From assembly GCF_003572205.1 (NCBI RefSeq), contig NZ_QXNY01000001.1:62001-126000 (forward strand): a stretch of 64,000 bases of DNA, written 5' to 3'. A model generated the notes under the pieces. It saw only the letters and a program-made list of their open reading frames with translations, searched no databases and was not told the origin of the DNA. Both the position numbers and the translations under genes were made by a program. The DNA is from Algihabitans albus (lineage in GTDB: Bacteria; Pseudomonadota; Alphaproteobacteria; Kiloniellales; DSM-21159). Shown one piece after another: positions 11,794-27,203 of this stretch. Position 1 is the first letter of the stretch. Every line of letters starts with the position of its first letter.

Positions 11794-12768
11794 TCATTCG
11801 GTCAGCCAGCCGAGAACGACGTCTTCGTTCTCATCGACCCATTGACGGGCGAAGACGGCGGGGTCCATGTCCTCGAGGGTCAGGGCATACCCCATCTCGC
11901 TGAGCGCCTCCGACGGCATCTTGTAGGCGTCGAGCATGGCCGCAACCTCCGGGAATTCCTCCTGGATGCTGGCTGCGTAGTGCAGGTGGAGCGTCGCCCC
12001 CTTCCAGGCCGTCGAAGCCTCCGACTTCTCGAGCCAGGCCGGATCGTCGGTCGGCTGGATGATGGTCCAGGTGTCCGGATCGTGTTCCGGCTCCTCCAGG
12101 AAGGTCAGATCGTAGGCGACGAAGATGAAGTGCGGGTCGTAGCAGAAGCCGAGCCAGGGCTCTCCGGCATCGACGGCGGTCCCCAGCGCACCCCAGGCGA
12201 CGGTTCCGTCGTACTCCTGCAGATCCAGCACCTCGTCGTAACCGTAGGACTTGGCCCGGATGCGCTCGATGGCCGTGGAGGCCCAGCCCGGCGCACCGAT
12301 CCAGATCTCGGGCCGTCCGTTGCCGTCCTTGTCGAAGATCGCCATCTTTTCCGGATCGGTCAGATCCTCGATCGAGCGGATATCGTACTCCTCGACGACA
12401 TAGCTCGGCACGCACATCCCCTGCACGGCCTGGACCGGGTTGTCGTTCATTATAACCGACTGACTTTCCTTCACGTAGCGATCGTGCAGGTTCTGCTGGT
12501 TCGGCATCCAGACCTCGGGATGCAGATGCATCGAGCCCTGGTCCATGGCCTCGAAGATGATCGGATTGGTACCGTTCTGCAGCTGCACGTCGAGGCCGAA
12601 GTTCTCCTCGATCACGAGCTTCAAAACGTTGGCGGTCGCGCTGGCCGCAGGCCAGTTGGGAACGCCCAGAACCAGATCGGCGGCTGAAGCCCCAGGGGCG
12701 GCCGTCGACAGGGACGCCATGCTGAAAACGCCTGCCGCAAGGGCAAGACGGGTGGTTGACTTGATCAC
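11794..12768 (-). CDS. proX: Glycine-betaine/proline-type ABC substrate-binding protein
   Basis: A 324-residue periplasmic binding protein of the OpuAC/ProX family. It starts at GTG 12768, overlapping the racemase stop by GTGA and preceded by AGGGA. The signal peptide runs to about residue 29 (STAAPGASA-ADL). Family motifs include VLGVPNWPAASATANVLKLVIEE, a segment rich in Trp/Tyr (HLHPEVWMP, EIWIGAPGWAS, GEPWLGFCYDPH) and the C-terminal WVDENEDVVLGWL. Aromatic residues of this family box quaternary ammonium groups. Whether this one has been retuned for a sulfonate is not visible. It sits between the catabolic genes and its own ATPase and permease. Confidence 0.88.
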   Translation of the reverse strand: MIKSTTRLALAAGVFSMASLSTAAPGASAADLVLGVPNWPAASATANVLKLVIEENFGLDVQLQNGTNPIIFEAMDQGSMHLHPEVWMPNQQNLHDRYVKESQSVIMNDNPVQAVQGMCVPSYVVEEYDIRSIEDLTDPEKMAIFDKDGNGRPEIWIGAPGWASTAIERIRAKSYGYDEVLDLQEYDGTVAWGALGTAVDAGEPWLGFCYDPHFIFVAYDLTFLEEPEHDPDTWTIIQPTDDPAWLEKSEASTAWKGATLHLHYAASIQEEFPEVAAMLDAYKMPSEALSEMGYALTLEDMDPAVFARQWVDENEDVVLGWLTE

Positions 12769-13574
12769 GTTGCAAACTCCCTGTTCTTTCGGCCGACTGA
12801 TTTCGCTGATATCGCCGGGCCCGGCCGAAGCACGGCGTTTTGGTTCTTCCAGCCGTCGGCGATCGCCGCGGCCAGCACGTCTATCGCGTCGAGAATCGGT
12901 ACGGCCCTCGGTAGGCCATCGGCGATCACCGAAATCTCGGTGCAGGCGATGGCAAGCGCGTCGGCCCCCTCGGCGATCAGTGAGACGGAGATTTCCGCCA
13001 GAGCCGCCCGCTCGGGCGCGCCCGCGTCGCCGCGCTTGACGGCGCGGATGATCTCCATCACCTCGGCCTGCCGCTGTGGGAAAATCTCCTCGATGCCCCG
13101 GTCGGCCAGAGCCTCTCTGTAGAGACCGGTGATCTGCACCGCGGTCGAAGCGAGCATACCGACCCGCTTCGGTCTCGGCGCGAGCGCGGCGAGCCGCGCG
13201 GCCGTCAGCCCGACCATGTCGAGCAAAGGAACCTCGCCGGCCGCAGCGCGGATCTCGGGCAGGTAGGCGTGAGCCGTGTTGCAGGGCATGGCAAGCGCCG
13301 TCGCACCCATGGCGACCAGCCGTGCGGCCATCGCGGCCAGAACCGGCCCCGGGCTTTCGCCGGTTCCCTCTATCAGCGCCTTGATGCGCGAGGGAACCTG
13401 ACTGTTGCAGTCGACCAGCAGCGGCACGTGATCGCTGTCGTCCTGCGCCGGCGTCGCGGCGAGCACGCGCGACATCAGCAGGACGGTGGCCTCGGGCCCC
13501 ATGCCGCCGAGAATACCGACTGGAGACTTGCTGGCCGGCGACTGAGCGGCGACAGGGAACGACGGCTTGTCCAT
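12765..13574 (-). CDS. Aspartate/glutamate racemase family protein, possible cysteate racemase
   Basis: A 269-residue cofactor-independent racemase. It has GILGGMGPEAT near the N-terminus and both catalytic cysteines: C98 in MPCNTAH and C211 in ACTEI. The start at 13574 overlaps the aminotransferase stop by one base (TGATG), and its own stop overlaps proX (GTGA), so it is tightly coupled in the operon. Aspartate racemases act on acidic amino acids. Cysteate is the sulfonate analogue of aspartate, and the operon also encodes a CuyA-like cysteate lyase, so cysteate racemisation is a reasonable inference. A hydantoin-racemase-like or maleate-isomerase-like role is less likely given the motifs. 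Confidence 0.78.
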   Translation of the reverse strand: MDKPSFPVAAQSPASKSPVGILGGMGPEATVLLMSRVLAATPAQDDSDHVPLLVDCNSQVPSRIKALIEGTGESPGPVLAAMAARLVAMGATALAMPCNTAHAYLPEIRAAAGEVPLLDMVGLTAARLAALAPRPKRVGMLASTAVQITGLYREALADRGIEEIFPQRQAEVMEIIRAVKRGDAGAPERAALAEISVSLIAEGADALAIACTEISVIADGLPRAVPILDAIDVLAAAIADGWKNQNAVLRPGPAISAKSVGRKNREFAT

Positions 13575-14806
13575 CAAGCCGCGCTCCTGTCCGCAAGCGT
13601 CTGAGCGCAGGTGGCGATGATATCGCCGATCTGCGCGCAGTCTTCGAGCGAGAAGGTCAAGGGAATGCGCATGTCGAAGAGCCCGGAGAGGACGGCATCC
13701 GTCTGCGGCAGCGACTGCGGCTCGAGGTAGCGCCAACTCTTATGGGTGCTGGTGAAGGCCACCGGCTCCTCGTCGCCGAACCACTTCAACTCCACGCCGA
13801 GCGCCCCGGTGGCGGCGAGAAAGGTGCGCGCCGCCGCTTCCGAAATGCCCGGAACGAGAAACTGGATCGAGCTGCCGACGTAGCGCTCCTCGGGCGGGCG
13901 GACCGGGACCTCCAGACTGTTGACGCTGCGCAGTTTGCGCTCGACCGCGCGGTAGCGCTCGTTCCAGCGCGCGCAGTTGGCATCCAGACCGGCGAGCTGC
14001 GGCCGCAAGACCGCGGCACGCAGATTGTCCATCCGTCCGGACCAGTTCGGCGTCTCCAGGCGAACATCGGCGAAGGCCTCCGGCCCCGGCGCGGCGCCAT
14101 GCCGTTCGTACTGCATGTAGGACCCGGACAGCACGATGGCGCGGGCCATGAAGTCTGGATCGTCGGAGGTCAGAAACCCGCCTTCGCCCGAGTTCAGATG
14201 TTTGTAGGTCTGGGTGCTGAAGCACCCGGCCAAGCCGAAGTTTCCGCTGTTGCGACCGCGCCACTGCGCACCCATCGTGTGGGCGCAGTCCTCGATCACG
14301 GTGACCCCATGAGCTTCGGCGAAGGCCATAAGCCGGTCCATGTCGGCCAGATGGCCGCGCATATGAGACAGCAACAGGAAACGCGCGCCGCTGTCCGCGT
14401 GTTTACGCGCGAGGTCATCGAGATCGAGGACCAGGTCCCGCGTGATCTCCACGAAGACCGGCGCTCCGCCGGCATTGACGATGGCCCCCGGCACGGGCGC
14501 CAGGGTGAAGGCGTTGGTGAGCACCGCTTCGCCAGCCCGCAGTCCGGCCGCTTTCAGCGCGATCTGCATGGCATAACCGCCGGACGCGCAGGCCAGGCAG
14601 TAGCGGCTGCCCTGATAGTCGGCATAGTCGCGCTCGAGACGCGATGCTTCCGACAGCTCGTCGCCGAGCGTATTGTAGCGATGCAGCCGACCGGACCGGA
14701 GGACCTCGACCGCGGCCGCGATGGCCTCTTCACCAATCGGCTCTTGCTGGGTGAAGCTACCGGTAAAGGCTCCCGGAGCGCCCTGTGGCAAGTGTCGAGA
14801 GGACAT
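13574..14806 (-). CDS. DegT/DnrJ/EryC1/StrS family PLP aminotransferase
   Basis: A 410-residue fold-type I PLP enzyme of the DegT family. It has the Schiff-base lysine K202 in STQTYKHLNSGEGGFL, D173 in EDCAHTMGA and the Gly-rich TGSF/SGGYAMQ region. It is well preserved and of normal family length. The start at 14806 has AAGGCGGGG upstream. Most DegT enzymes transaminate keto-sugars. Here it sits 20 bases after cuyA and overlaps the racemase, with no sugar-biosynthesis genes near. It may therefore aminate or deaminate a C3-sulfonate intermediate such as sulfopyruvate/cysteate, or the imported substrate itself. That substrate is inferred from context only. Confidence 0.8.
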   Translation of the reverse strand: MSSRHLPQGAPGAFTGSFTQQEPIGEEAIAAAVEVLRSGRLHRYNTLGDELSEASRLERDYADYQGSRYCLACASGGYAMQIALKAAGLRAGEAVLTNAFTLAPVPGAIVNAGGAPVFVEITRDLVLDLDDLARKHADSGARFLLLSHMRGHLADMDRLMAFAEAHGVTVIEDCAHTMGAQWRGRNSGNFGLAGCFSTQTYKHLNSGEGGFLTSDDPDFMARAIVLSGSYMQYERHGAAPGPEAFADVRLETPNWSGRMDNLRAAVLRPQLAGLDANCARWNERYRAVERKLRSVNSLEVPVRPPEERYVGSSIQFLVPGISEAAARTFLAATGALGVELKWFGDEEPVAFTSTHKSWRYLEPQSLPQTDAVLSGLFDMRIPLTFSLEDCAQIGDIIATCAQTLADRSAA

Positions 14807-14826
14807 CGCCCCGCCTTCCTTCGCCG

Positions 14827-15855
14827 CTACTGCGCCGCGATCGGCTCGGACAGCGGTGCGTAATCGAACGCCATCGTATAACCGAACAACGCGGCTGATC
14901 CCCCAGTATGCAGGAAGACGATGCGTTCGCCTTGTTCAAAATGCCCCTTGCGGATGAGATCTATGAGACCGGCTGCACCTTTAGCGGAATAAACCGGGTC
15001 GAGCAGGATGCCCTCGAGCTGGGCGAACATCTCGATGGCCTCGATCGTCCCGGGGGTCGGAATGCCGTAGCCCTCGCCCACGTAATCGGTGTTGGCCACG
15101 ACGTCCTCGCGCGTCACGACGCCCGAACAGCCGAGTTTTTCGGCCGTCGCCGCCGCCAGCTTATAGACGTTCTCCTCCTGCTTGGGCTTGGGCGCGCGCA
15201 CCCCGATCCCGAGCAGGGGAATGTTCGCGTTCATCGCCTTCAGGCCGACCACCAGGCCCGCCTGCGTTCCCGCGCTGCCGGTGGCGTGAACCAGCCGGTC
15301 GATCCGCAGCCCGCGCTCGTTGGCCTGGTTGACCAGCTCGAGCGCGCAGTTGACGTAGCCGAGCGCGCCCGTCGGATTCGAACCGCCGCCCGGAATCGCG
15401 TAGACCTTGCGGCCGCCTGCGCGCAGTTGATCGGCCACGGCCTCCATCTCCGCCTGCATGTCGAGACCCGAAGGGCGCTTTTCGGCGGTCGCGCCATGCA
15501 GGTAATCCAGGAAGACGTTGCCGTTCTCTCGGTAATTGCTGTCCTCGTAGCCGGTGCGGTCCTCGAGCAGGATGTGGCAGTCCAGGCCGAGTTTGGCCGC
15601 GAAGGCCGCGGTCTGGCGGGCATGGTTCGACTGAGTCGCGCCCTGGGTCACCACCATGTCGGCACCCTCGGCCTCGGCCTCGGCCATCAGGAATTCGAGC
15701 TTGCGCGTCTTGTTGCCGCCGGTGGAAAGACCCGTGCAGTCGTCCCGCTTGATCCAGAGTTCCGGGCCGCCGAGTTCCTTGGACAGGCGGTCCATCCGCT
15801 CCAGCGGCGTCGGCAGATGCGCCAGATGGATGCGCGGGAAGCGGGCAAGATGCAT
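14827..15855 (-). CDS. cuyA: CuyA-like L-cysteate sulfo-lyase (D-cysteine desulfhydrase family)
   Basis: A 342-residue fold-type II PLP enzyme of the ACC deaminase/D-cysteine desulfhydrase group. The PLP lysine K49 is in [13 protein letters not shown]. Other conserved parts are [21 protein letters not shown], the phosphate-binding [20 protein letters not shown] and the C-terminal [13 protein letters not shown]. The sequence resembles CuyA, which splits cysteate into pyruvate, ammonium and sulfite, more than generic DcyD. It is the first gene of the operon, with AAAGG before the ATG at 15855, and diverges from a LysR gene. D-cysteine desulfhydrase activity is the main alternative, but hpsN and a racemase downstream favour sulfonate use. 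Confidence 0.75.
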
Positions 15856-15886
15856 GAGGTGGACCTTTCGTGCGGCGCGAAGTGAT

Positions 15887-15926
15887 GCAAAAACCGATCT
15901 TTGCGTGATCCAATCCTTTGCGCAAA
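15887..15926. promoter_or_regulatory. Candidate LysR operator with TTTGC/GCAAA half-sites
   Basis: The 120-base gap between cuyA and the LysR gene holds GCAAA (15887-15891), eight bases, TTTGC (15900-15904), and then the palindrome TTTGCGCAAA (15917-15926). Repeated half-sites in a divergent LysR intergenic region are the usual layout for the regulator's own binding sites. An AT-rich stretch follows toward the lysR start. Confidence 0.5.
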
Positions 15927-15975
15927 TGCCAATTTTTCGTAATAATATGCTTACATTGCATATTGTGAGAGCATC

Positions 15976-16941
15976 ATGCGTCTCGAGTGGATCGAGGATC
16001 TCTTGGCCGTCATGGAGACCGGTTCACTCAGCCGGGCCGCGGAAAAACGCTTTTCGACCCAGCCTGCCTTTTCCCGGCGCATCCGCTCGATCGAGGAGCA
16101 TATCGGGGTCGAACTGCTCGACCGCACTCGCAAACCGGTGCAGATCAAGACTTCCCTGCTCGATCAGCGCCAGCGCATGCAGGAACTCGCCGCCGGCCTG
16201 CGCCAACTGACACTGGATCTGAAGCGGCAGGACCGTACGGCACAAAATCGCGTGGTGATCGCCAGCCAACACGCCATCACCACCGCGATGGCGCCCCATC
16301 TGATCAACCGCCTGTCGGATCGGCAGGATCTCAGCATCCGTCTGCGCTCGGCCAATCGTAAAGAGTGTCTCATCCTGCTGATGACGCGGCAGGCGGATAT
16401 CATTCTGATCTACGAGAGCGAGGGCGACAGGCTGGCCGCCGACGAGGATTTCCTGGAGCGCTGCGCGGTCGGCCGCGAACGGCTGGTCCCCGTCTACGCC
16501 ACGAACCGCCTGACGCAGTTGAACGAAGCCTATGCTCTGGGCGAGCTGCCGGTCATCGCCTATCCTCCGGACGTCTTTCTCGGCAGCCTGCTGGAAGCCA
16601 AGGTCTTTCCCAGGCTGCCGGCCCGCAGTTTCATTCAAAGAAAGGCGGAAACGGCCCTGACCCCGGCGGCGCTCCAGCTGGCCGTGGCCGGCGTCGGGAT
16701 CGCCTGGGTGCCGCGCTCTCTGGCCCTGGGCGAAATCGGCCGGGGCAGCCTGACGGAACTCGCCGGCAGCCTGCCCAGCAGCGAGCTCTTCATGACCGCC
16801 CTGCGCCTCACCACACCGAAATCAGCGGCGGAAGAGCGCATGTGGGCGACGGTTGCCGCTCTGTCGCAGGACGAGACCGCGCGAGATCTCCCGACCGGCG
16901 CCGTGCCCACGGCGCCCTTCGCGGATCCGATGGAGGCCTAG
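15976..16941 (+). CDS. LysR-family transcriptional regulator of the cuyA-hpsN operon
   Basis: A 321-residue LysR-type regulator. It has an N-terminal winged helix (1-60, [28 protein letters not shown]), a linker helix, and a periplasmic-binding-like effector domain (about 90-290). It diverges from cuyA, so it most likely controls the sulfonate operon in response to substrate or intermediate, and itself. The ATG at 15976 begins the canonical HTH. Its stop TAG (16939-16941) lies inside the left edge of a dispersed repeat, so the last residues may have been set by insertion of that repeat. Confidence 0.88.
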
Positions 16942-17079
16942 ACCAGATAGTGATCGGTCGGACCCACCTATTGGGTCCGGCGATTCCGTTGAATCCAGTC
17001 TCGATTCGAAGTGTGAGAGTCTGTTTCTTGGGATCGGCGGAACCGCGAAGCGAGTCCATACCATCACAACAGGCTCTAG
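16938..17079 (+). repeat. Dispersed repeat, copy 1
   Basis: 142 bases that match a second stretch at 43974-44114 over their whole length. They share CTAGAC at the left, TATTGGGTCCGGCGATT in the middle, GTTTCTTGGGATCGGCGG, CCGCGAAGCGAGTCC and CTCTAG at the right. In this copy the right arm of the internal hairpin is degenerate (17061-17069). The left CTAG carries the lysR stop codon. It is non-coding and looks like a short interspersed intergenic element. Confidence 0.85.
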
Positions 17080-17099
17080 GCGGCGAGCATCTCCTAAGG

Positions 17100-17127
17100 A
17101 AAAAAGCGGCCCGCCGAAGCGGGCCGC
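17100..17127 (-). terminator. Rho-independent terminator after the molybdopterin subunit gene
   Basis: On the minus strand a 9-bp GC stem (GCGGCCCGC 17106-17114 with GCGGGCCGC 17119-17127, loop CGAA) is followed by a run of six T (17100-17105 read as A on plus). It lies 35 bases past the stop of the idrA-like gene and closes the operon. Confidence 0.9.
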
Positions 17128-17162
17128 CCTGAACCTCGAATCGAGACCTGTCGCGCAGGCCG

Positions 17163-19832
17163 CTAGCCGCTGACGATCGGCCGGGGCTTCAGCGACATCT
17201 CCAGGAAGTTCTCCTCGTAGGCCGAGGGCCCGATGCGGCGGAGCACGCCGCGGCCGAGCTTGTAGCGGTAGTTGCCGCTGACCGGGTCCGGCACTGCGTG
17301 GCAGACCGCGTTGGCCATCGAGCCCGGATAGTTGAAGGCCGCCTTCGCGACACCCGGGCGCATCTCGTCGGAGACAATGGCGACGGCGACGAACTGCCCG
17401 GTCGTGGTGCGAATATGCCCGTTCTCCATCAGCTTCGTGAAGCTGAGGTCGTCGGACTTCACGCCGACCGGCTCGCCCTCCTGAACATAGACCGTGTCGT
17501 TGAACCCCTCGACCAGATCGCCGGACTCGATGCCGTGCGGCGCGGCGTCGTCGGGATGGATCACGATGTGCGGCCAGGGCCAGCGCCGGGCCAGCTCGGG
17601 CTTGCGCAGATCGTCGAAGCCGGATTGCCAGGTCTCGTTCACCCGGCCGTTGGTGATCCAGATTTCCCCCTTTTCGGCCCGCGGCTTGATCGCCTCGTAG
17701 AAATCCGACCAGCTATCGTTGACCCAGGGTGTCTTCAGCAGGTTGGCCTTGCCGGTGTGCGTCCCGAAGGCATAGAGCCACTTCTTATCGGTGGTCACGT
17801 CCTCCAGCTCGCCCCAGTCGTTGTCCGGGTCGTGCAGACGGGGCGTCCCGGTCAGCTCGCCGTCGACCATGCGGATCGGCGTCTGGATGCCGGTCGTCCC
17901 ATATTCGCGTAGCTTCTCGTGACCCGCCTTGCCTTCCCGTTTCGCCTGGACCGCCAGGGCGTAGTAGTTGAGAACGCCGTTGCGGGAATGGCGCGCCGCC
18001 TCCTCGAAAATCTCGTTGGAGTCGGTCCAGTCGAAACCCTCGAAGCCCATCTTCTGGGCGAACTGCGAGACCGCCCACCAGTCCGGCTTGGCGTCGCCGG
18101 GCGCGTCGTTGAATTTGGAATAGAGACGCAGGCGGCGTTCGGCGTTGCAGCGGGTGAAGTCCACCTCGCCCCAGCCGGCGGCCGGCAGCACGATATCGGC
18201 ATACTGCGTGTTGAGCGGGTCGACCGGATAGATGTCGGAGTCGACCAGCACCATGCCGCCCGATTCGACCCGCGCGATCAGCGTCTCGATCAGATGGTCG
18301 CGGTTGACGTTGGTGGCGTGATGCGGATTCCGCACGGTCAGGTCGGCGACCCGCGAGGACAGCGCCTGTGACGCCAGCATCGCCGGGAACCAGGTCAGGC
18401 CGATGGTCCACATGAACTTGACCTTGCCGTCCATCACCCAACGGTCGACGTTGAGCGACTTCTTGCGCCGTCCGGGATGCTTTTCGGGGCTCAGGAAGCC
18501 ACGGCCGCCGCCGGCGCTCATGCCGCCGCGCTGATGACCGCCGCCGCGCGAGATTACCTGGCCCGGACGGTTGCCCGCCCCGCAGACCAGGGCCAGCGAC
18601 GCCAGGGAGGCGGTGTTCATGTAGTTGTTGGACCAGTAGTTGCCCTTCTCCAGCATGAAGGAGGTCTTCGGGCGGCTGCCGTCGTCGCGCGGACGCGCGA
18701 TCATCTCCGCCGCCGCCTCGATCAGGTCGGCGTCCAGTCCGGTGATGGCCGCGGCTTCCTCCAGCCGGGCGGCCGGCTCGTTGGCGATGAAGTCCTGATA
18801 GTCCTCCCAGTCGCTCTGCCAGCGGCCCCAGGTCGTCCGCCACTGCCAGCGCGTGTTGCGGGTGCCGCGTCCGTAGCCGGACTCGATCTCCCAGCGGTTG
18901 TTGACCCAGCGCTCGATGAAGTCCTGGTCCTGCCAGCCGTTGTCCAGGACGATCTTGGCCATGGCCAGATGCAGGGCGGTATCGGTACCCGGCGTGATCG
19001 GCAGCCAGAGCCCGCCGTTCTGCAGGCCGTACTCCACGCCCATGGTCCGGTGCGGCGTGACGAAGATCATCTTCTTCGCCGGATTCTCGCCGTACATCAT
19101 CCACTCGGTGAAGAGCACCGTTTTGGTCTCGTAGGGATCGACGCCCGACAGGAAGGCGACGTCGCAGGCGCCCCAGTCGGCGTAGGAGGCGGAGAAGGAG
19201 TTGACGCCGCTGTCGTCCAGACCGGCGGCATCCTCCGCCGCCTGCGGCTTGTCGTGCGGCGCGAAGACCGGCGTGCCGATCCCCCGGTTGACCAGCTTCG
19301 AGATCGCGTAGGTGTTCTCGAAATACTCGTATGAATAGGCCTTCATGCCCCAGGCGTGCTCGCCGTGAGTCCGGAGCACATGCTTGGAGACCTCGGCCAT
19401 CACGTCGGTGACCAGATCCCAGGAGACGGGCGTCAGCACGCCGGCCACGCGGACCATCGGATACTTCAGCCGGTCGCGGGTCGGGGTCCTGGGATTGTAG
19501 ATCTTCTGGGCCAGGGTTCCGCCACGCACCGAGTGGTTGCCCAGGGGGTTCACCACCTCGGTATCGGGATCGGGCATCACCACGACATGGTGTTCCTGGC
19601 CTTCGTGGATCGCGATGTTGTGCTGCGACGGCGAGATCCAGGACCCGCCCGCCGTCGGGAAGTCGATCCCGAGCGCGTTCTGGTCCGCCGCTGGACCACC
19701 CTCTTGGCCCACGGGCCAGCGATAGACGCGGTAGCCGCAGGCGACGATGCAGTAGGAGCAGGCCGTGGTCAGCAACTCGGCGGTCACCGGCGGCAAGGGC
19801 ACGCGTTCGATATTACCAATGATGTCGGTCAT
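17163..19832 (-). CDS. idrA: Iodate-reductase-like molybdopterin catalytic subunit (AioA/IdrA branch)
   Basis: An 889-residue DMSO-reductase-family enzyme. The Fe-S site is C25-x2-C28-x3-C32, and S101 (GNHSVRGG) stands where the arsenite oxidase branch has Ser instead of a fourth Cys, predicting a [3Fe-4S] cluster. An R429-GGG-H433-Q motif matches the active-site Arg and His I recall for arsenite oxidase AioA. There is no signal peptide, as expected if it is exported piggyback with the TAT-bearing Rieske subunit 13 bases upstream. AioA operons do not carry paired cytochrome c peroxidases. The combination A+B+two peroxidases is the hallmark of the idr iodate reductase cluster, so IdrA is the best call. 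Arsenite oxidase remains the alternative. Confidence 0.78.
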   Translation of the reverse strand: MTDIIGNIERVPLPPVTAELLTTACSYCIVACGYRVYRWPVGQEGGPAADQNALGIDFPTAGGSWISPSQHNIAIHEGQEHHVVVMPDPDTEVVNPLGNHSVRGGTLAQKIYNPRTPTRDRLKYPMVRVAGVLTPVSWDLVTDVMAEVSKHVLRTHGEHAWGMKAYSYEYFENTYAISKLVNRGIGTPVFAPHDKPQAAEDAAGLDDSGVNSFSASYADWGACDVAFLSGVDPYETKTVLFTEWMMYGENPAKKMIFVTPHRTMGVEYGLQNGGLWLPITPGTDTALHLAMAKIVLDNGWQDQDFIERWVNNRWEIESGYGRGTRNTRWQWRTTWGRWQSDWEDYQDFIANEPAARLEEAAAITGLDADLIEAAAEMIARPRDDGSRPKTSFMLEKGNYWSNNYMNTASLASLALVCGAGNRPGQVISRGGGHQRGGMSAGGGRGFLSPEKHPGRRKKSLNVDRWVMDGKVKFMWTIGLTWFPAMLASQALSSRVADLTVRNPHHATNVNRDHLIETLIARVESGGMVLVDSDIYPVDPLNTQYADIVLPAAGWGEVDFTRCNAERRLRLYSKFNDAPGDAKPDWWAVSQFAQKMGFEGFDWTDSNEIFEEAARHSRNGVLNYYALAVQAKREGKAGHEKLREYGTTGIQTPIRMVDGELTGTPRLHDPDNDWGELEDVTTDKKWLYAFGTHTGKANLLKTPWVNDSWSDFYEAIKPRAEKGEIWITNGRVNETWQSGFDDLRKPELARRWPWPHIVIHPDDAAPHGIESGDLVEGFNDTVYVQEGEPVGVKSDDLSFTKLMENGHIRTTTGQFVAVAIVSDEMRPGVAKAAFNYPGSMANAVCHAVPDPVSGNYRYKLGRGVLRRIGPSAYEENFLEMSLKPRPIVSG

Positions 19833-19845
19833 TACAGTGCTTCCC

Positions 19846-20406
19846 TTACGCCCCGGAGGGATTGCGGTTGTAGCCGTAGAAGAGCCCCATGACGCCGGTC
19901 GCCACGATCTCGTCGCCGTCGGCCTCCAGGACGATCTGCGGCAGGCTGACGCTCGCGTGACCGGAGACGACCATGCCGTGCTTGGTCAGATCGAAGGTGG
20001 AGAGGTGCAGCGGGCAGGGCCCCATGACGCTGTGCTCGGCCTTGAAGGTGCCGGTCATGTAGCTGCCCATGTGCGGGCAGACGACGTTGAAGGCGACGAC
20101 GTTGCGGTCCGGTCCGATCCCGCCGCCGGCGGGTTCGTTCAACATCACCAGGGCGTTCTCGATATCGTCGGTCGGGTAGGTGAAGGAAACCTCGGACCCC
20201 GGCTGAAGCTCCGACAGGCGTCCGATCACCTTACGGGTATACCCGCTGGAGACCAGCTGCTGGGCCATCGCGCCGCTGCCCACGGTGGCGAGCACGGCCA
20301 CGGCGCTGCCGCCGAGGATCAGGAACTCGCGGCGCGCCATACAGAGACCTGGCTGTTGGACTTGCCGTGCGCGAGACGCGGGCTCTTTCAGATCAGTTTT
20401 GCTCAT
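19846..20406 (-). CDS. idrB: Rieske 2Fe-2S subunit with TAT signal
   Basis: A 186-residue Rieske protein. The twin-arginine signal ARREFLILGG (R25-R26) precedes a hydrophobic segment and a cut near AMA-QQ. Cluster ligands are C110-P-H112 and C131-P-L-H134. The position that usually forms the Rieske disulfide after the first ligand pair is Ser115 (CPHMGS) rather than Cys. The start at 20406 is chosen because its ATG overlaps the upstream peroxidase by 14 bases (ATGAGCAAAACTGA), suggesting translational coupling; an ATG at 20340 just before RR has no ribosome site. It is the AioB/IdrB-type electron-transfer partner of the molybdopterin subunit, in the periplasm. Confidence 0.85.
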   Translation of the reverse strand: MSKTDLKEPASRARQVQQPGLCMARREFLILGGSAVAVLATVGSGAMAQQLVSSGYTRKVIGRLSELQPGSEVSFTYPTDDIENALVMLNEPAGGGIGPDRNVVAFNVVCPHMGSYMTGTFKAEHSVMGPCPLHLSTFDLTKHGMVVSGHASVSLPQIVLEADGDEIVATGVMGLFYGYNRNPSGA

Positions 20407-21523
20407 CGGGAAACTCCGCCCAGGTTTGGGTTTGCGGCAATTCGGGAGGGTCTTGCAGGAGAGGCTCGTCCATCGACAGGGCCTCCAGGAAGGCCACGAG
20501 ATCGGCCTGCTGCCGGTCGTCCAGGTCGAGCGGAGAAAGCACCGTGTTACCGGCACCGCCGCCCCCGTTGTAGAAGGCGACCACTTCCTCCAGCGTCGCG
20601 AAGACGCCGTTGTGCATATAGGGTTCGGTCCAGCGCAACTCGCGCAGGGACGGCGTGCGGAAGCGCCCCTTGTCCTCGGGCCGCTTGGTCACGTGGAAGA
20701 GCCCCAGGTCGTCGTCGCCCGCGCGGTAGACCGCCTCGGGCACACCCTTCTGATAGAGCTCCCAGCGCAAGGTGATCTGGAAGAGCGAGTCGTCATCGAA
20801 CTGAGGCGCGGCGGGAACGCCCAGAGCATAGTAGCGCTGGTCGGACGCCAAGGCGCCGTTGTGACAGGCGATGCAGCCCGCCTGCCCTTCGAACAGGTCC
20901 CTGCCCCGCAGCGCGCCTTCCGAGAGGGCAGTCTCGTCGCCCGCCAGATAGCGGTCGAAGGGCACCTGCTCCGGGTCGGTTACCAGAGTCCGCTGATAGG
21001 CGCCGATGGCCTGCCAGGCCTGGGAGATCTTCGGCCAGTCGGTCCCGAAAACCTCGCGGAAGGCCTCGACGTACTCCGGCACGAAGCGCAGCCGCATCTC
21101 CATCATGGAGCCGTCGCCGTTGCCGGCCACGCCGCCGCCGGCCGCCGCCGGGGCCTGAGCCTCCAGCGAGGTGACGCTGCCTTCCCAGAACAGCTTGTTG
21201 TAGTAGGCGCTGTTGAGAATCGTCTGGGAGTTCCGCCAGTGTTCGGTGCCCGGATAACCGAAGGAGATCGGCGTCGCGGTACCCCAGCCGAGTTCGGGCA
21301 GGTGACAGACGGAACAGGCCATGGCGCCGTTGCCGGACAGCCGTCCGTCCCAAAACAGCTGCCGGCCGAGTTCGACCTTCTCCGGCGTCATGGGATTGTC
21401 GGCCGGGACCGGCACCGGCGGCAGGGTGGCCAGAGGCGGAAGCTCCTGGGCGGCGGCGGCGAGGCCGGCGACCGTCAGAAGACCGGCGGCCAGAGACCCC
21501 AGCAGTAAACGACGAGATGTCAT
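20393..21523 (-). CDS. idrP1: Di-heme cytochrome c peroxidase-like protein, Rieske-proximal
   Basis: A 376-residue exported di-heme protein of the MauG/CcpA family. The signal segment MTSRRLLLGSLAAGLLTVAG is followed by two c-type heme sites, C70-SV-C73-H74 and C217-IA-C220-H221, and by the late PYMHNGVF motif that usually carries the distal Met. It lies 11 bases after the other peroxidase gene and overlaps the Rieske gene by 14 bases, so it is in the same transcript. In idr clusters the two peroxidases are thought to detoxify H2O2 or reactive iodine intermediates formed during iodate reduction. Assigning P1 versus P2 is arbitrary here and follows adjacency to idrB. Confidence 0.72.
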   Translation of the reverse strand: MTSRRLLLGSLAAGLLTVAGLAAAAQELPPLATLPPVPVPADNPMTPEKVELGRQLFWDGRLSGNGAMACSVCHLPELGWGTATPISFGYPGTEHWRNSQTILNSAYYNKLFWEGSVTSLEAQAPAAAGGGVAGNGDGSMMEMRLRFVPEYVEAFREVFGTDWPKISQAWQAIGAYQRTLVTDPEQVPFDRYLAGDETALSEGALRGRDLFEGQAGCIACHNGALASDQRYYALGVPAAPQFDDDSLFQITLRWELYQKGVPEAVYRAGDDDLGLFHVTKRPEDKGRFRTPSLRELRWTEPYMHNGVFATLEEVVAFYNGGGGAGNTVLSPLDLDDRQQADLVAFLEALSMDEPLLQDPPELPQTQTWAEFPDEQN

Positions 21524-21534
21524 CGCAGTCTCTC

Positions 21535-22668
21535 CTAATTCTCGCCGCGGGCGCGGAGTTGGTACGCGGGCAGCTCGGGCCGGGTCGCGTCCGGCGCGGC
21601 GCCGGTCAAGCTCTCCAGGAAGGCGACCAGATCGCCCTTCTCCTCGTCGGAGAGATCGAGCGGCGGCAGGCTCTCCGTGCCCACGTCGTAGAAATCCACG
21701 ACCTCCCCCAGCGTCTCGAAGACGCCCGAGTGCATGTAGGGCGCGGTCTGACCCACATCCCAAAGGGACGGCGTGGCGAAGCGGCCGATATCCTCGGCCT
21801 CCTTGGAGATCACGTAGGCCCCGACGTCCTCGCGCAGGTTCATGTAGTTGGGCGTCCCCATCGTCGCGTAGAAACGCAGCATGGTGATCTGGCGGTCGGC
21901 CTCCTGTGCCAGTGCCGGATGGTCGGGCACGCCGGTCGCATGCCTGCCGCCGTCCGACAGCATCGACCCGCTGTGACAGGCCGAGCAGTTGGCCTTGCCG
22001 GCGAAGACGTCCATGCCGCGCCGCGCCTCCGCGCTCAGGGCGTCCTCATCTCCGCGCAGAAAGAGGTCGAAAGGTGCATCGACCGTGCGGATGGTCTTCA
22101 GGTACTCGGCGATCGCACTGTAGATCCGCCCGCCGTAGGGATCTGTGCCGAAGACCGATTGGAAGGCCTCCGCATAGTCCGGGATCTGCTTCAGCCGCTC
22201 CTGCATCAGGCGGCTGTCCATCTGCATGGTGTGCGACTCGGTGATCATATCGCGCACGAGGGTCGGCAGATCTGCACCGTCGAGCCGCCCGTCCCACATG
22301 AAGAAGTTGCGGTTGGCGACGTTGAACAGCCCCGGCGCGTTCCGGAAGTAGAGCACGCTCGTGTAGCCGTTCGACAAGGCCATCCCGTCGCCCCAGCCGA
22401 GATCGGGCGCGTGGCAGGTCGAACAGGAGCTCGCCGTGTCGCCGGAAAGACGCGGGTCGAAGAAGAGCGACCGGCCGAGGTCGGCCTTTGCCTGGTCGAT
22501 CTCCGGAACGTCCGGAAGGGGGGCGAAGACTTCGCCGTCGGCCTGCTGCGCTCCCGCAGCCGATACGCCGAGCACGAGCACGGCCAAGCCGGCGGGCACG
22601 ATCTTACCCCACTTCGACAACCAACCGGCGGGCTCACCGCCCCGCTCGGATGCGCCTTCTTGGGTCAT
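21535..22668 (-). CDS. idrP2: Di-heme cytochrome c peroxidase-like protein, promoter-proximal
   Basis: A 377-residue di-heme protein, first gene of the operon, with GAGGGA before the ATG at 22668. An N-terminal tail of about 24 residues precedes a hydrophobic signal or anchor (IVPAGLAVLVLGVSAAGA). Heme sites are C82-ST-C85-H86 and C228-SA-C231-H232, and PYMHSGVF follows near the end. It is a clear paralog of the next gene (shared LSGD/N.C..CH, LGWG, FWDGRL-type motifs). It would act in the periplasm as a peroxidase with the Idr complex. The FNR-type box upstream lies at the right distance for activation. The P1/P2 label is arbitrary. Confidence 0.72.
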   Translation of the reverse strand: MTQEGASERGGEPAGWLSKWGKIVPAGLAVLVLGVSAAGAQQADGEVFAPLPDVPEIDQAKADLGRSLFFDPRLSGDTASSCSTCHAPDLGWGDGMALSNGYTSVLYFRNAPGLFNVANRNFFMWDGRLDGADLPTLVRDMITESHTMQMDSRLMQERLKQIPDYAEAFQSVFGTDPYGGRIYSAIAEYLKTIRTVDAPFDLFLRGDEDALSAEARRGMDVFAGKANCSACHSGSMLSDGGRHATGVPDHPALAQEADRQITMLRFYATMGTPNYMNLREDVGAYVISKEAEDIGRFATPSLWDVGQTAPYMHSGVFETLGEVVDFYDVGTESLPPLDLSDEEKGDLVAFLESLTGAAPDATRPELPAYQLRARGEN

Positions 22669-22725
22669 CTCTTATCCCTCGTTTCGATCTCATCCCAGCC
22701 CAACAAAAACAAAATTTTGGATCCA

Positions 22726-22749
22726 CTGCATTGACTGCAATCAATGCAG
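22726..22749. promoter_or_regulatory. FNR/FixK-type box between idr operon and its regulator
   Basis: The core TTGAC-TGCA-ATCAA (22731-22744) differs from the FNR consensus TTGAT-N4-ATCAA at one base. It is embedded in a longer perfect dyad, CTGCATTGA / TCAATGCAG (22726-22734 and 22741-22749). It is centred about 70 bases upstream of the first peroxidase start and 131 bases upstream of the divergent FNR-like gene. Confidence 0.75.
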
Positions 22750-22828
22750 ACACTGCCAAGTCGGCGTTTCTGAAAGAAATTCGGACTGCGGGGCAAAGAA
22801 AAAACCGAACGTAGACAAATGAAAAGAC

Positions 22829-22844
22829 GCGAATAACTATTCGC
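22829..22844. promoter_or_regulatory. Perfect palindrome upstream of the FNR-like regulator
   Basis: GCGAATA-AC-TATTCGC is a 7+7 palindrome with a two-base centre, 24 bases before the ATG of the FNR-like gene. It could be an operator for autoregulation or for another protein. It does not match FNR. Confidence 0.4.
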
Positions 22845-22868
22845 CATCTTGAATAAGAGGGCAATCTT

Positions 22869-23615
22869 ATGGTGAAGAGCACCTGCGCTGCCTGCCAATT
22901 CTCCCGAGCGAACAAGGTGATCTGCAGCGTGATGAAGGCCTCGGACCGCAAGGCGCTGTCACGCCGGTCTTGCAGTTTGTCGCTTGGGAAAGGAGAAATT
23001 CTGAGCAGCGAGCGCCTGAGCGACTGGCCGGTCCTGGCGATCTGCGGCGGAGCCATGGCGGTGCAGACCTGGCTCAGCGACGGCCGGCGCTCGCTCTCGC
23101 AACTTTTTCTTCAGGCGGACCTGATCGAGCTGCGCAGGTCCCCCCGCCCCTTCACCGGAGAGCTTTTCGCTCTCCGCCCGACCCACCTCTGCGCGCTGCA
23201 CGGGCGGACGCTGGACGAGATCCGCTGGACCGACCGGAGCGTCAGCCAAGCCTACGACGCCCAGATCGCCGACCAGACTCATATCCTGCGCGACCACTGC
23301 GTCAACATCGGCAAGAAGACGCCGGCGGAACGCCTCGCCTCCTTCCTGCTCGAGCTATCCGGCCGGGCGGTCGACGCCGCAGACGAGCTTGACGGCAAGG
23401 GCGGGAAACTCGACCTCCCCATGAGCCACGCGGAGATCGCGGACTACCTGGCGCTGCAACCCGAAACGGTGTCGCGCGTCTTCGCCCGAATTGCCGACGA
23501 ACACCTCATCACCCGCCCGGCCCGCAACACGACAAGCATCCTGGACGCCCCCGAACTCGCCCGCATCGCCGGCGGCGGCCGGCCCAGGCGCCGCGTCGTG
23601 GGCGGCGCCGAATAG
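22869..23615 (+). CDS. Crp/Fnr-family regulator, FNR-like, with N-terminal cysteines
   Basis: A 248-residue Crp/Fnr regulator. The N-terminus has C6-x2-C9-x9-C19, and C108 (THLCALH) lies in the sensory domain, a pattern compatible with the four-Cys [4Fe-4S] oxygen sensor of FNR proteins. The C-terminal helix-turn-helix (about 185-215) has the FNR recognition residues E-x2-S-R (E199, S202, R203 in PETVSR), which read TTGAT half-sites. It diverges from the idr operon across a region holding a near-perfect FNR box. Together this supports an oxygen-responsive activator of the idr genes. Cys spacing is not identical to E. coli FNR, so Fe-S binding is inferred. The ATG at 22869 has AGAGGG upstream. 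Confidence 0.85.
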   Translation: MVKSTCAACQFSRANKVICSVMKASDRKALSRRSCSLSLGKGEILSSERLSDWPVLAICGGAMAVQTWLSDGRRSLSQLFLQADLIELRRSPRPFTGELFALRPTHLCALHGRTLDEIRWTDRSVSQAYDAQIADQTHILRDHCVNIGKKTPAERLASFLLELSGRAVDAADELDGKGGKLDLPMSHAEIADYLALQPETVSRVFARIADEHLITRPARNTTSILDAPELARIAGGGRPRRRVVGGAE

Positions 23616-23660
23616 CTCGTTACGGCGCCGGCTTATCGGCCTACAGTCGATTTGATCTCT

Positions 23661-24329
23661 ATGCTCGATCAGACCGGGGGCCGAAGCTCAGTGCTGCAGC
23701 TCGATCATCTGACCGTTATCGCTCCATCGCTGGCCGAAGGCGTCGATCATGTCCGCGCCTGCCTCGATCTCGACATTCCCTACGGCGGCACTCACCCGCA
23801 AATGGGCACGCACAACCATCTGCTGCGATTGGGCGACGACGTCTACCTGGAGGTCATCGCCGTCGATCCGAAGACGCCTGCGCCATCGGGACCGCGATGG
23901 TTCGGCCTCGGCGATGCGGAGACCGTTCGTTCGGATTGGGCAGATGGCCGGCGCTTGAGAGGCTGGGTTGTACGGACCACTCGGATCGATGCCGTTCTGG
24001 CCGAACACGGCGACCGGTTTGGAAAGAAAATCCGGGGCTCGCGCGGCGGCCGGTACTTCCTGTTTTCCTTGCTGCCCGATGGCTCTCTACCCTTGAATGG
24101 GGCCCTTCCGCCCGTGATCGACAGAGGCGACCGGCCTCCGCCCGCCACGAGGATGGAAGACCAGGGCGCCCGCCTCACGGACGTCCTGCTCGAACATCCC
24201 TCTCCCGACGAGATCGCAAGACTCTACGCGCAGCTCCAGATCGGCAGTCCGCCGCTGGTCCGGGAAGGCCCGATAGTTCGATACTCCGCGAAAATCGACA
24301 CGCCGAGCGGGATGAAGGTCTTGCAGTGA
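23661..24329 (+). CDS. Glyoxalase-like (VOC) domain protein
   Basis: A 222-residue protein of the glyoxalase-like type 3 family: LQLDHLTVIAPSLAEGVDHVRACLDLDIPYGGTHPQMGTHNHLLRLGDDVYLEVIAVDP. The N-terminal VOC fold is clear (H in LDHLTV, E in YLEVIA). The start is uncertain: ATG 23661, TTG 23652 or an internal GTG just before LQLDH, with no strong ribosome site. The function of this family is mostly unknown. It follows the FNR-like gene in the same direction by 45 bases, and I see no functional link to iodate reduction. Confidence 0.7.
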   Translation: MLDQTGGRSSVLQLDHLTVIAPSLAEGVDHVRACLDLDIPYGGTHPQMGTHNHLLRLGDDVYLEVIAVDPKTPAPSGPRWFGLGDAETVRSDWADGRRLRGWVVRTTRIDAVLAEHGDRFGKKIRGSRGGRYFLFSLLPDGSLPLNGALPPVIDRGDRPPPATRMEDQGARLTDVLLEHPSPDEIARLYAQLQIGSPPLVREGPIVRYSAKIDTPSGMKVLQ

Positions 24330-24440
24330 CAGGCGCTGCGCAATGACAGGCATCGCGCAGGGACAGGCGTCGCCCGGGCCGACTCGTGCAAAGCCGGTTT
24401 CCGGCGCCGTCATACCTTGGCCGCTCGACGCGAGAAAAAG

Positions 24441-24516
24441 TGGTGGAGCCGAGGGGAATCGAACCCCTGACCTCAGCAGTGCGATTGCTGCGCTCTCCCA
24501 ACTGAGCTACGGCCCC
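24441..24516 (-). tRNA. tRNA-Ala (anticodon CGC)
   Basis: The minus-strand sequence folds as a full cloverleaf. The acceptor stem GGGGCCG pairs with CGGCUCC and contains the alanine identity pair G3-U70. The anticodon stem CAGCA/UGCUG encloses the loop AUCGCAC with anticodon CGC, and the T-arm has GGUUCGAUUCC. The 3' CCA is encoded. A short T-run follows on the minus strand. Confidence 0.97.
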
Positions 24517-24829
24517 GACCGGGACGGAGGGCCTTTACACGCCGGCTTCGGCGATGCCCCCTGTCGAGGCGGCGGATATTGGGTAGCGGCCCGCTCCTTG
24601 TCAATATAGGGGGGCAATAAGAGGGCATGACGCCGGGGCGCTTTGGGGGCCGCCCCGCCTCCGGGCGAAACGTCTTGCCATTTTCGCTCGCTATCCGCAC
24701 ATCTAGCGGGCCTGCGTCCGGTCCCCGGGGATCCGTTCTCCCTGGAAAACCGTGCCGGGCCCATTAGAAGCCGTCGGCCGGTCGTGGCCGGTCAGGCCCG
24801 ACCTCGGCGAAGGAGCCATCGCGCAACTC
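24517..24829. other. Intergenic region between tRNA-Ala and yggT
   Basis: These 313 bases hold the tRNA promoter (minus strand) and the yggT leader (plus strand). I see no gene, repeat or clear hairpin. A frame runs into yggT from 24752 but adds 26 residues without family support. Confidence 0.5.
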
Positions 24830-25126
24830 ATGTCCGCCTTGCTTTGGCTGTTCGATACAGTCGTTCAGATTTACCTGATCTTCCTGATCGCCTCGATCGT
24901 GCTGTCGTGGCTGATCGCCTTCAATGTGGCGAACCCCTACAACCAGTTCGTCTACACGATCCGGGATTTCCTGGCCCGGGTCACGGAGCCGGCGCTGCAG
25001 CCGATCCGCCGCATCCTGCCGGATCTCGGGGGTATCGACCTTTCGCCGATGGTGCTGATCATCGGCATTATCTTCGTGCAGCGTCTGGTCCACGAAGCCT
25101 TCCGATCCTTCGCTTACGGCATGTAA
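24830..25126 (+). CDS. YggT family membrane protein
   Basis: A 98-residue integral membrane protein of the YggT family. Two hydrophobic segments ([25 protein letters not shown] and [18 protein letters not shown]) flank the signature [29 protein letters not shown]. The start at 24830 gives the normal length; AGGAG upstream is 14 bases away, longer than ideal. YggT proteins are linked to cell division and osmotic or ion homeostasis but have no settled biochemical role. It precedes folD in the same direction by 161 bases. Confidence 0.88.
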
Positions 25127-25287
25127 CGCCCCGCGGCGCAGTTCCGATCCGGGCGAGGCCTCCTCTGCGACGCTTCTCCGCCGCCGCGCGTCGCCGCGCT
25201 GTCGGACGACAAGGGCTGGACGGCATCGGCGGGCAGATCGTAAAGCCGTGCGGATATGACGGGTCGAGCGGGGGGAAGCAGAGGGCG

Positions 25288-26202
25288 ATGACGGCTGAGA
25301 TCATCGACGGCAAGGCTTTCGCGGCCGGGCTGCGCGCCAGAGTGGCGGAGCAAGTGGCCGCGCTGACGGCCGATAACGAGGCGGGCGGGGCCGGCGGCGG
25401 CCTGAGACCCGGCCTCGCCGTGGTTTTGGTCGGCGACAATCCGGCCAGCGAGGTCTACGTCCGCAACAAGGCGCGCCAGACCCTGGAGGTCGGCATGCGC
25501 AGCTTCGAGCACCGCCTGGAGGCCTCGACTAGCCAGGGCGAACTGCTGGCCCTGGTCGAGCGTCTGAACCGCGACCCCGCCGTGCACGGCATCCTGGTTC
25601 AGCTTCCGCTGCCGGAGCAGATCGACGCCGCCGCGGTGATCAACGCGATCGACCCGGCCAAGGACGTCGACGGCTTCCACATCCTCAACGCCGGGCGGCT
25701 CGCGACCGGACAGGACGCGCTGGTGCCCTGCACGCCGCTCGGCTGCCTGATGCTGCTGCAGGCGCGTTTCGGCGACCTTTCCGGTCAGCGCGCCGTCGTC
25801 CTGGGCCGCTCCAACATCGTCGGCAAGCCGATGGCGCAGCTCTTGCTCGGCGCCAACTGCACGGTCACCTTGGCCCACTCGCGGACCCGCGATCTGCCGG
25901 CGATCTGCCGCGAAGGCGATATCCTGATCGCCGCCGTCGGCCGGCCCCGGATGGTGGAGGCCGGCTGGGTCAAGCCCGGCGCAACCGTGATCGACGTCGG
26001 GATCAACCGCCTGGAGCCGGAGACGCCGGGCGGCAAGGGCCGGCTGGTCGGCGACGTGGATTTCGACGCGGTCCGGCAGGTCGCCGGCGCGATCACTCCG
26101 GTACCCGGCGGCGTCGGCCCCATGACCATCGCCTGCCTGCTGGCCAACACCCTGACCGCCGCCTGCCGCGCCACGGGCCGGGCGGCGCCGAAATTGCTCT
26201 AG
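25288..26202 (+). CDS. folD: Bifunctional methylene-THF dehydrogenase/methenyl-THF cyclohydrolase
   Basis: A 304-residue FolD. It interconverts 5,10-methylene-, methenyl- and 10-formyl-tetrahydrofolate with NADP+. Visible motifs: [14 protein letters not shown] with the catalytic Lys, [39 protein letters not shown], and [18 protein letters not shown] near the end. Length is normal. The ATG at 25288 is preceded by GAGGG; the longer open frame upstream overlaps yggT and is not coding. The TAG stop is followed at once by a hairpin-rich intergenic repeat region. Confidence 0.95.
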
Positions 26203-26345
26203 CTCTCGAGTCCAGAGCAGGATCGCCCGAGGTGGACTCGCTCTGGCGATCCCCCTAAGGCGTGACTCCTACTCTCACCATCAGGTTAGAGGGCGATTCA
26301 CGTCTCGGGCGGACGCGAAGCGCTTCCGCCCGAGACGATCGCGCT
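26203..26345. repeat. Intergenic hairpin repeats between folD and the phosphodiesterase gene
   Basis: Two hairpins lie between convergent genes. GGATCGCC (from 26220) pairs with GGCGATCC (to 26252). CGTCTCGGGCGGA (26301-26313) pairs with TCCGCCCGAGACG (26325-26337). The right edge TCTAGAGCGCGATC (read on minus from 26350) carries the neighbour's stop codon and resembles the element at 47773. Confidence 0.6.
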
Positions 26346-27203
26346 CTAGACGGCGGGACGGTCTGCTGGAGCTTCCTCCAGCGGCGGCAGCTCGGTCAGC
26401 GTCTGAGCCGGCTCGGTCGCCTCGGTCATCTCGAAGCGCGGGCTGTCGTCCAGATAGGCCTGCACATGCATGACGACGGCATCGGGCCGCAGCAGGACCA
26501 CGCCGTAGGCCGGCGGTTCGTGGCTGCCGGGCACATCCTCGCGATGGAACTGCAGCAAGACCTGATGGTTCGTTCCCGGCAGGGTCGAGTAGGGCAGGCC
26601 GTGCCAGGACCCCGCGATGGTGCGATGGATGTGGCCGAAGAAGATGTGGCGCAGGCCGCCCTGGGCCTGCAGCAGCGGCAGCAGAGCTTCGGCGTTCTGC
26701 AGGCGGATCGCATCCATGCCCGGAATCCCCAGGTCGAGCGGCGCATGGTGCAGAAACAGATAGACCGGCCGGCCCTTCGCCGCCGCCAGAGTCCGCTCCA
26801 GCCACTCCAGCCGGGCGTCGCAGAGACGGCCGCCGTCGCTGCCGGGCACCAGGGTGTCGAGGAAGACGAAAAGACCGGCCTCGGTTTCCTCGGCCCACTG
26901 CACGAAGCCCTGCGGGTCGGTCGGGCTGTCGGGAAAGGCGGCCAGGAAGTTGGTGCGGTCGTCGTGATTGCCCGGGATCAGGCGATAGGGCGGCGCAAGC
27001 GCGTCGAGCGCAAGCTTGAGATCGGCATAGGCCTCCGGCTCGCCCCAATGGGTCAGGTCGCCGGTCACCACCACCATCGCGGCGTCGGCATGCTGCCGGT
27101 TGATGTCCGCCACCGCGGCGGCGAGCCGCGCCCGGGGGTCGAGGGCGAAGAGCTTGCGCGGGGCCGGCACCACATGGGTGTCGGTCAGATGGATGAACTT
27201 CAA
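26346..27203 (-). CDS. Metallophosphoesterase, CpdA-like phosphodiesterase
   Basis: A 285-residue calcineurin-type phosphoesterase with the full metal set: D8 and H10 (LTDTH), GDLTHWG, GNHDD, HHAP and GHIH. The pattern and length match CpdA-type cyclic-nucleotide phosphodiesterases, so hydrolysis of 3',5'-cAMP or a related phosphodiester is likely; the exact substrate is not certain. It starts at TTG 27203, overlapping the HAD gene stop as TTGA, with AGGAG seven bases upstream. Its stop TAG (26346-26348) is inside the CTAG of a neighbouring repeat edge. Confidence 0.85.
   Translation of the reverse strand: MKFIHLTDTHVVPAPRKLFALDPRARLAAAVADINRQHADAAMVVVTGDLTHWGEPEAYADLKLALDALAPPYRLIPGNHDDRTNFLAAFPDSPTDPQGFVQWAEETEAGLFVFLDTLVPGSDGGRLCDARLEWLERTLAAAKGRPVYLFLHHAPLDLGIPGMDAIRLQNAEALLPLLQAQGGLRHIFFGHIHRTIAGSWHGLPYSTLPGTNHQVLLQFHREDVPGSHEPPAYGVVLLRPDAVVMHVQAYLDDSPRFEMTEATEPAQTLTELPPLEEAPADRPAV

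Follow-up and report, generated by a model that had tools for sequence, protein, structure and literature searches.

Marine iodide reacts with ozone, and the reduction of iodate by bacteria has a bearing on it (PMC11445184). Iodate reductases of the Idr family are the closest described relatives of the system considered here, a four-gene idr operon with a divergent Crp/Fnr-family regulator gene in Algihabitans albus. The operon lies in a stretch of 64,000 nucleotides (contig NZ_QXNY01000001.1, positions 62,001 to 126,000), referred to below in its entirety as the window, and coordinates are those of this window. Publications are cited by PubMed Central (PMC) identifier.

In Denitromonas iodatirespirans IR-12, which grows anaerobically on iodate, deletion of idrA abolished growth on iodate (PMC8692401). 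The gene set and order of its Idr cluster are those of the window; upstream are relatives of the sensor kinase and the sigma-54-dependent regulator known from Azonexus, accompanied by a cytochrome c match. In static culture, Roseovarius azorensis and Notoacmeibacter marinus reduced nearly all of 2 mM iodate; under shaking they reduced 0.1-0.5 mM. Mass spectrometry identified R. azorensis IdrA in a gel band with iodate-reducing activity (PMC11445184). These two organisms have the four genes of the window in the same order, and their IdrA proteins belong to the same 13-row clade, but the upstream place taken in the window by a Crp/Fnr-family regulator is occupied in them by a sensor kinase and a divergent response regulator. 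A two-component system has been proposed as the iodate sensor (PMC8801600). Aurantimonas marina SW136 (L032) has the same type of divergent Crp/Fnr regulator as the window, together with a TTGA-N6-TCAA box; the literature consulted contains no account of iodate reduction by this strain.

Two further comparisons concern the enzyme and the regulator separately. The arsenite oxidase AioBA has the two-subunit architecture and cluster motifs of the window enzyme, but differs from it in pocket residues, in the lack of peroxidases in the regions from pSinA and from a complete genome of the same genus as the window (G001), and in the aioXSR regulators present on pSinA. CprK, which controls halogen-linked respiration (PMC2610375), and the FixK/FNR proteins resemble the window regulator in fold and type of DNA box, TTGA-N6-TCAA being the consensus for FixK-type proteins (PMC5582078). 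The subfamily of the window regulator is separate from the other Fnr-family genes of its genome. Judged by its sequence, the window cluster is an additional member of the known Idr family, and a periplasmic Idr-family iodate reductase is its best explanation, which we regard as very probable.

The idr Operon

The first-pass annotation of this DNA had placed four co-directional genes at 17163-22668, and all of them are found there (Table 1). It had described their products as a molybdopterin subunit, a twin-arginine-exported Rieske protein and two di-haem cytochrome c peroxidases, with which both motifs and families agree. The IdrA motif C25-x2-C28-x3-C32-x68-S101 is complete (in DN11 IdrA the spacing before the serine is x70 rather than x68; PMC10149662), IdrB has a complete Rieske motif CxH-x18-CxxH in addition to its twin-arginine motif, and each peroxidase contains two CxxCH. 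Pfam assigns Rieske_3, Molybdopterin and Molydop_binding to the large subunit and CCP_MauG to both peroxidases; the small subunit scores below the NCBIfam cut-off for TIGR02694 (89.4 vs. 95.65 bits). Idr systems are expected to have Sec signals on the peroxidases and none on IdrA; judged by eye, a signal peptide appears to be absent from IdrA. The start of idrB was taken at the ATG at 20406, since the longer open reading frame (ORF) reaching 20556 overlaps the upstream peroxidase gene. The intergenic gaps of 11 and 13 bp and the 14-bp overlap of one gene pair make a single operon likely. In comparison with Aurantimonas marina, the ratios of nonsynonymous to synonymous substitution rates (dN/dS) are 0.12 for idrA, 0.23 for idrB, 0.14 for the second and 0.27 for the first peroxidase gene (dS 0.8-1.0), indicating that the four genes are under constraint and are not chance ORFs.

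Table 1. Features of the idr locus in the window, with strand and the evidence used.
Feature	Coordinates	Strand	Basis or detail
idrA, catalytic Mo / [3Fe-4S] subunit, 889 aa	17163..19832	(-)	families, motifs, tree
idrB, Rieske [2Fe-2S] subunit, 186 aa, twin-arginine motif RREFL	19846..20406	(-)	families, motifs
Di-haem cytochrome c peroxidase, 376 aa, idrP1 by position (adjoins idrB)	20393..21523	(-)	families, motifs
Di-haem cytochrome c peroxidase, 377 aa, idrP2 by position (first gene of the operon)	21535..22668	(-)	families, motifs
Perfect palindrome TGCATTGA-N6-TCAATGCA enclosing TTGA-N6-TCAA (FNR/FixK-type) box	22727..22748	(.)	box 22731-22744
Divergent Crp/Fnr-family regulator, 248 aa, idr-linked subfamily	22869..23615	(+)	families, tree, fold

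The cluster had initially been written idrA-idrB-idrP1-idrP2; the gene set stands, while the direction of transcription gives the order peroxidase (377 aa), peroxidase (376 aa), idrB, idrA (P-P-B-A), as is common among Idr clusters (PMC10989891). The accessions of DN11 run in the order A, B, P1, P2 (PMC10149662) and the order in Ca. M. iodofontis is stated as idrP2, P1, B, A (PMC10989891), so that idrP2 designates the first gene and idrP1 the neighbour of idrB. Gene order was surveyed at 96 loci, 20 of which have less than 3.3 kb upstream and were set aside; P-P-B-A is found in 67 of the 76 counted, IR-12 and R. azorensis included. The other nine comprise one P-P-B-A locus with swapped peroxidase labels, five with one long peroxidase ORF, one with a peroxidase after idrA and two with B-A only. 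In the five loci with a long ORF (L067, L070, L075, L096 and L097), a single peroxidase-labelled frame of 673-901 aa, roughly double the normal size, replaces the two genes and perhaps encodes fused peroxidases.

Phylogenetic Position of IdrA

Genomes were scanned with an alignment of nine sequences (the window and eight relatives), and the best 80 of 433 related stretches were kept. Among these, the IdrA of A. marina SW136 is closest (86% identity); identity to the proteins of R. azorensis (L039), N. marinus (L042) and IR-12 (L053) is 79%, 76% and 66%, respectively, and to the AioA rows 28-34% by several methods. The tree, a quick search with support by the Shimodaira-Hasegawa-like approximate likelihood ratio test (SH-aLRT) only, was built from 54 of the 89 rows, each of at least 700 aa and picked by hand (two shorter rows, L073 and L086, were dropped), and includes four long-branch rows. 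The window protein falls within a 13-row clade (SH-aLRT 99) with the two proven iodate reducers R. azorensis and N. marinus, nested in a 29-row clade (SH-aLRT 100) that takes in IR-12, and the five AioA rows form a group of their own (SH-aLRT 100). Placement of the catalytic subunit had been set beforehand as the refuting test, and the window IdrA does not lie inside AioA; the choice of Idr over arsenite oxidase made in the first-pass annotation is thereby supported.

The Divergent Regulator and the Nearby Box

The pair formed by the divergent regulator and the box is the new element of this analysis; among the open PubMed Central papers listed, judged from listings and passages, none was seen to describe a regulator of the Crp/Fnr type at idr. 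The protein has a Crp-type helix-turn-helix (Pfam HTH_Crp_2, 64.4 bits), and the best Foldseek matches of its predicted fold (mean predicted local distance difference test score 81) are FNR, followed by FixK2; it stays below the curated NCBIfam equivalog cut-offs for FnrL (62.9 vs. 300 bits) and FixK (61.2 vs. 300 bits). Its recognition helix contains E-x-x-S-R, presumably an FNR-type reading head, which is invariant in eight regulator rows; overall identity between the window and A. marina regulators is 40%. Eleven idr-linked regulators group in a single clade (SH-aLRT 96), which excludes four further Fnr-family genes from the genome to which the window belongs. This clade has three branches that broadly agree with the IdrA groups, several outer rows being long-branched, and the regulator adjoins idr in two deep IdrA clades.

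Other idr loci carry different regulators. The plasmid-borne cluster of Azonexus contains a sensor kinase (annotated as an ATP-binding protein), a sigma-54-dependent regulator and a downstream cytochrome c, relatives of which occur at many betaproteobacterial idr loci. Among 45 idr loci, nearly all alphaproteobacterial, 11 have the divergent Crp/Fnr regulator and 13 a kinase with a divergent response regulator; the two types are found together in none of these 24, and the rest of the 45 have neither or are too short to tell. Kinase and response regulator were recognized by weak similarity, Pfam domains having been run for R. azorensis only, where the pair comprises PAS, HisKA, HATPase and receiver domains and an OmpR-type response regulator.

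A profile of eight regulators gave six strong matches (299-371 bits; next 145 bits) in 98 relatives, all in genomes with Idr-like genes, which were seen in 15 of the 98; only two of the six (G021 and G056) are independent of the profile, because four profile sequences come from the searched genomes. In 385 genomes of the class the same profile gave two strong matches, both in idr-bearing genomes, followed by one at 139 bits. Both scans, like those for Idr-like genes in these genomes, scored a limited number of candidates per genome. The regulator of G056 is located close to the end of a contig, which is consistent with idr linkage and not proof of it, and a 55-residue piece in G053, a genome with a B-A-only relative, scores 82 bits.

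Between the operon and the regulator gene lies the full palindrome TGCATTGACTGCAATCAATGCA, with the centre of the box 69.5 bp from the first operon ATG. At up to three mismatches it is the sole such site in the window, where 0.03 would be expected. For a comparative count, 97 loci were considered, from which 22 lacking an assigned first-peroxidase gene, five with less than 300 bp upstream and one duplicate contig were left out. In the remaining 69, a 500-bp stretch around the operon start contains the box in 11/11 loci with the regulator vs. 5/58 without it (p 2.4e-9); three other choices of stretch gave 11/11 vs. 5/58, 10/11 vs. 4/58 and 10/11 vs. 3/58.

From these observations we consider it somewhat probable that low oxygen and/or iodate switches the operon on, with the divergent Crp/Fnr-family regulator working through the TTGA-N6-TCAA box. 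A more specific proposal, for and against which the arguments seem to us evenly balanced, is that a dedicated Crp/Fnr subfamily, swapped for two-component systems at otherwise similar idr operons in two deep IdrA clades, directly senses iodate, a reactive product or low oxygen and acts through the box, as an iodate counterpart of CprK. Through this pair, in a way open to testing, low oxygen or iodate could activate the pathway in organisms that lack the two-component system proposed as iodate sensor, and the same pair is present in related strains, e.g., Pelagibius litoralis and Aurantimonas marina.

Several points count against this regulatory proposal. The palindrome had been spotted in the window sequence ahead of its test, and 3/100 shuffles hold one at up to three mismatches; the TTGA-N6-TCAA core is not rare enough alone, with two occurrences in the window, 0.34 expected and two reached in 8/100 shuffles. 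Two of the four upstream-stretch choices give 10/11 rather than 11/11, and the p value overstates independence because the 11 loci are related and represent roughly three to six lineages. A scan of 22600-22950 for sigma-70-type promoters matched none, and the rows of the regulator clade were gathered with a profile built from ten of its own members. The window regulator has N-terminal cysteines at positions 6, 9 and 19 in addition to further ones; N-terminal cysteines occur in some relatives and not in all. A classical four-cysteine FNR reading is not borne out, as the cysteines are not conserved through the subfamily.

In a different account, the Fnr-like gene and the box serve other control, such as self-regulation or regulation of a downstream glyoxalase-like gene, and their company with idr reflects hitch-hiking. 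Such an account would suit a regulator and box that sit between divergent units, the differing position of the box within the upstream stretch from one locus to another, and the small number of independent lineages. However, it fits poorly with the occurrence of the regulator beside idr in two deep IdrA clades and with the restriction of strong regulator matches to idr genomes, and we regard it as rather unlikely compared with control of the idr operon.

Substrate of the Window Enzyme

The positions His-Asn...Glu, which we take to be the substrate-pocket residues of AioA, distinguish the two groups of enzymes. They read His-Asn...Glu in all five AioA rows, whereas H193 and D194 (window numbering) are kept in 82/82 Idr-like rows, and position 201, corresponding to the AioA Glu, is D in 63 of these, S in 17, P in one and A in one, the window having D201. 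A second-segment Arg and the His following the pocket motif are conserved in all 89 rows. Two rows were set apart: the pocket motif places L016, which nevertheless has a long branch, with Idr, and L019 with Aio. Iodate as the substrate of the window enzyme is a strong inference.

It is improbable, though less so than an arsenite oxidase, that the main substrate of this Idr-family enzyme is another oxyanion or halogen species and iodate reduction a side activity. In the literature consulted, knowledge of the substrate of this clade comes solely from iodate assays on cells and in gels, but R. azorensis idrA is induced from 0.1 uM iodate and members of the clade reduce it at 2 mM (PMC11445184).

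Some results speak against an Idr assignment. The large subunit exceeds the cut-off of NCBIfam TIGR02693 (arsenite oxidase; 438.6 bits, cut-off 359.05), no Idr model is among its NCBIfam matches, and the cytochrome c and moaA of some idr clusters have no match in window positions 12000-26000. An arsenite oxidase operon with two accessory peroxidases is nevertheless highly improbable and was rejected: the TIGR02693 score, the shared [3Fe-4S] motif and pocket Arg and His, and the fact that the best-scoring solved relatives are all AioA are outweighed by the low identity to AioA and its separate group in the tree, by the replacement of the AioA pocket Asn...Glu in all Idr-like rows, and by an aioBA-type region located elsewhere in the same-genus genome G001, where, as had been claimed for arsenite oxidase operons in general, neither peroxidase is matched.

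Proposed Mechanism and Physiology

Gene set, order, motifs, clade and intactness can be read from the DNA itself; we infer the substrate, the electron route and the role of the peroxidases. Electrons from the quinol pool would reach the [2Fe-2S] cluster of IdrB by way of the bc1 complex and a c-type cytochrome whose gene lies elsewhere, and from there would pass through the [3Fe-4S] cluster of IdrA to the molybdenum site, where iodate would be reduced to hypoiodous acid. The latter would disproportionate to iodide and iodate, and the two di-haem peroxidases would remove peroxide arising along the way. Activation of the operon at low oxygen and/or with iodate would depend on the regulator acting at the box between the two transcription units. 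The IdrAB steps follow the published model. No family match to Cld was found in the genome to which the window belongs, which fits the hypoiodous acid disproportionation model (PMC8692401) rather than a Cld model.

The same genome encodes a bc1 Rieske protein and a cbb3 oxidase (ccoN), and neither NarG nor NapA has a match above cut-off in it; a cbb3 oxidase without Nar or Nap makes the organism look microaerobic. Cultures of R. azorensis and N. marinus showed neither growth nor iodate reduction under N2, whereas R. azorensis cells that had been grown in static culture with iodate and then washed reduced iodate anaerobically, and use of iodate as an electron sink has been suggested for R. azorensis (PMC11445184). 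By analogy, iodate may serve A. albus as an electron sink when oxygen runs short; this use under oxygen limitation is no less likely than anaerobic respiration that supports growth. The first-pass annotation had concluded that the organism can respire iodate. Iodate reduction is very probable, but growth by iodate respiration, unlike the substrate, goes too far, given that the closest tested relatives could not grow under N2; once scaled down from respiration to iodate reduction, the earlier reading is supported.

Genomic Context and Likely Acquisition

The genome contains one IdrA gene; the next-best match has an E value of 3e-8 and three others look formate-dehydrogenase-like, so that no AioA is seen in it. 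No idr match was listed in two other sampled genomes of the genus (G002 being 82% complete), in a scan that also missed the AioA of G001, and this absence is therefore not firm alone. A DNA search of G001 with the region returned only short idrA-like matches at the G001 aio locus, and three members of the family match IdrA at 34% only. The complete genome G001 has, at L129 (G001:C1:3818000-3834000), an aioBA-type region with a match to a sigma-54-type regulator and no idr.

The left flank of the cluster (LysR, cuyA) and its right flank (tRNA onward) are about 800 kb apart in G001, which places the cluster at a synteny breakpoint. A clean empty site was looked for in G001 and not found, and no attachment-like repeat was seen in 14000-27000. 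The split flanks, together with the position of the nearest IdrA relatives in other orders, support horizontal gain, a mode of acquisition documented for idr in other cases (PMC8692401). As no idr was seen in the other two genomes sampled from the genus, this intact operon adds a fresh case of likely transfer.

As for the flanking genes, the LysR gene (15976-16941) and cuyA were considered as parts of the system and rejected, both being present at the G001 flank without idr. The adjoining cuyA (14827-15855) encodes D-cysteate sulfo-lyase CuyA (563 bits vs. a cut-off of 450). On the other side, yggT and folD were named by eye. A transfer-messenger RNA called at 24441-24762 by ARAGORN (Rfam 47.1 bits vs. 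a cut-off of 47, matching only 24441-24516) was rejected; 24441-24516 is most likely a plain 76-nt tRNA, of which four genomes of the family have a 94-99% matching copy near the same flank.

Idr-like Genes at Other Loci

Two genomes of one genus contain an Idr-like A-B pair without peroxidases (L156 at G049:C8, 3493-9332, and L157 with L016 at G053:C11). At L156 the pair adjoins genes for a nitroreductase, an extracytoplasmic function-type sigma factor and a zinc-finger protein. Finally, the 1.7-Mb plasmid pTHAF190c_a of Vibrio sp. THAF190c (L031) encodes an IdrA that is 48% identical, along with peroxidase and IdrB matches.

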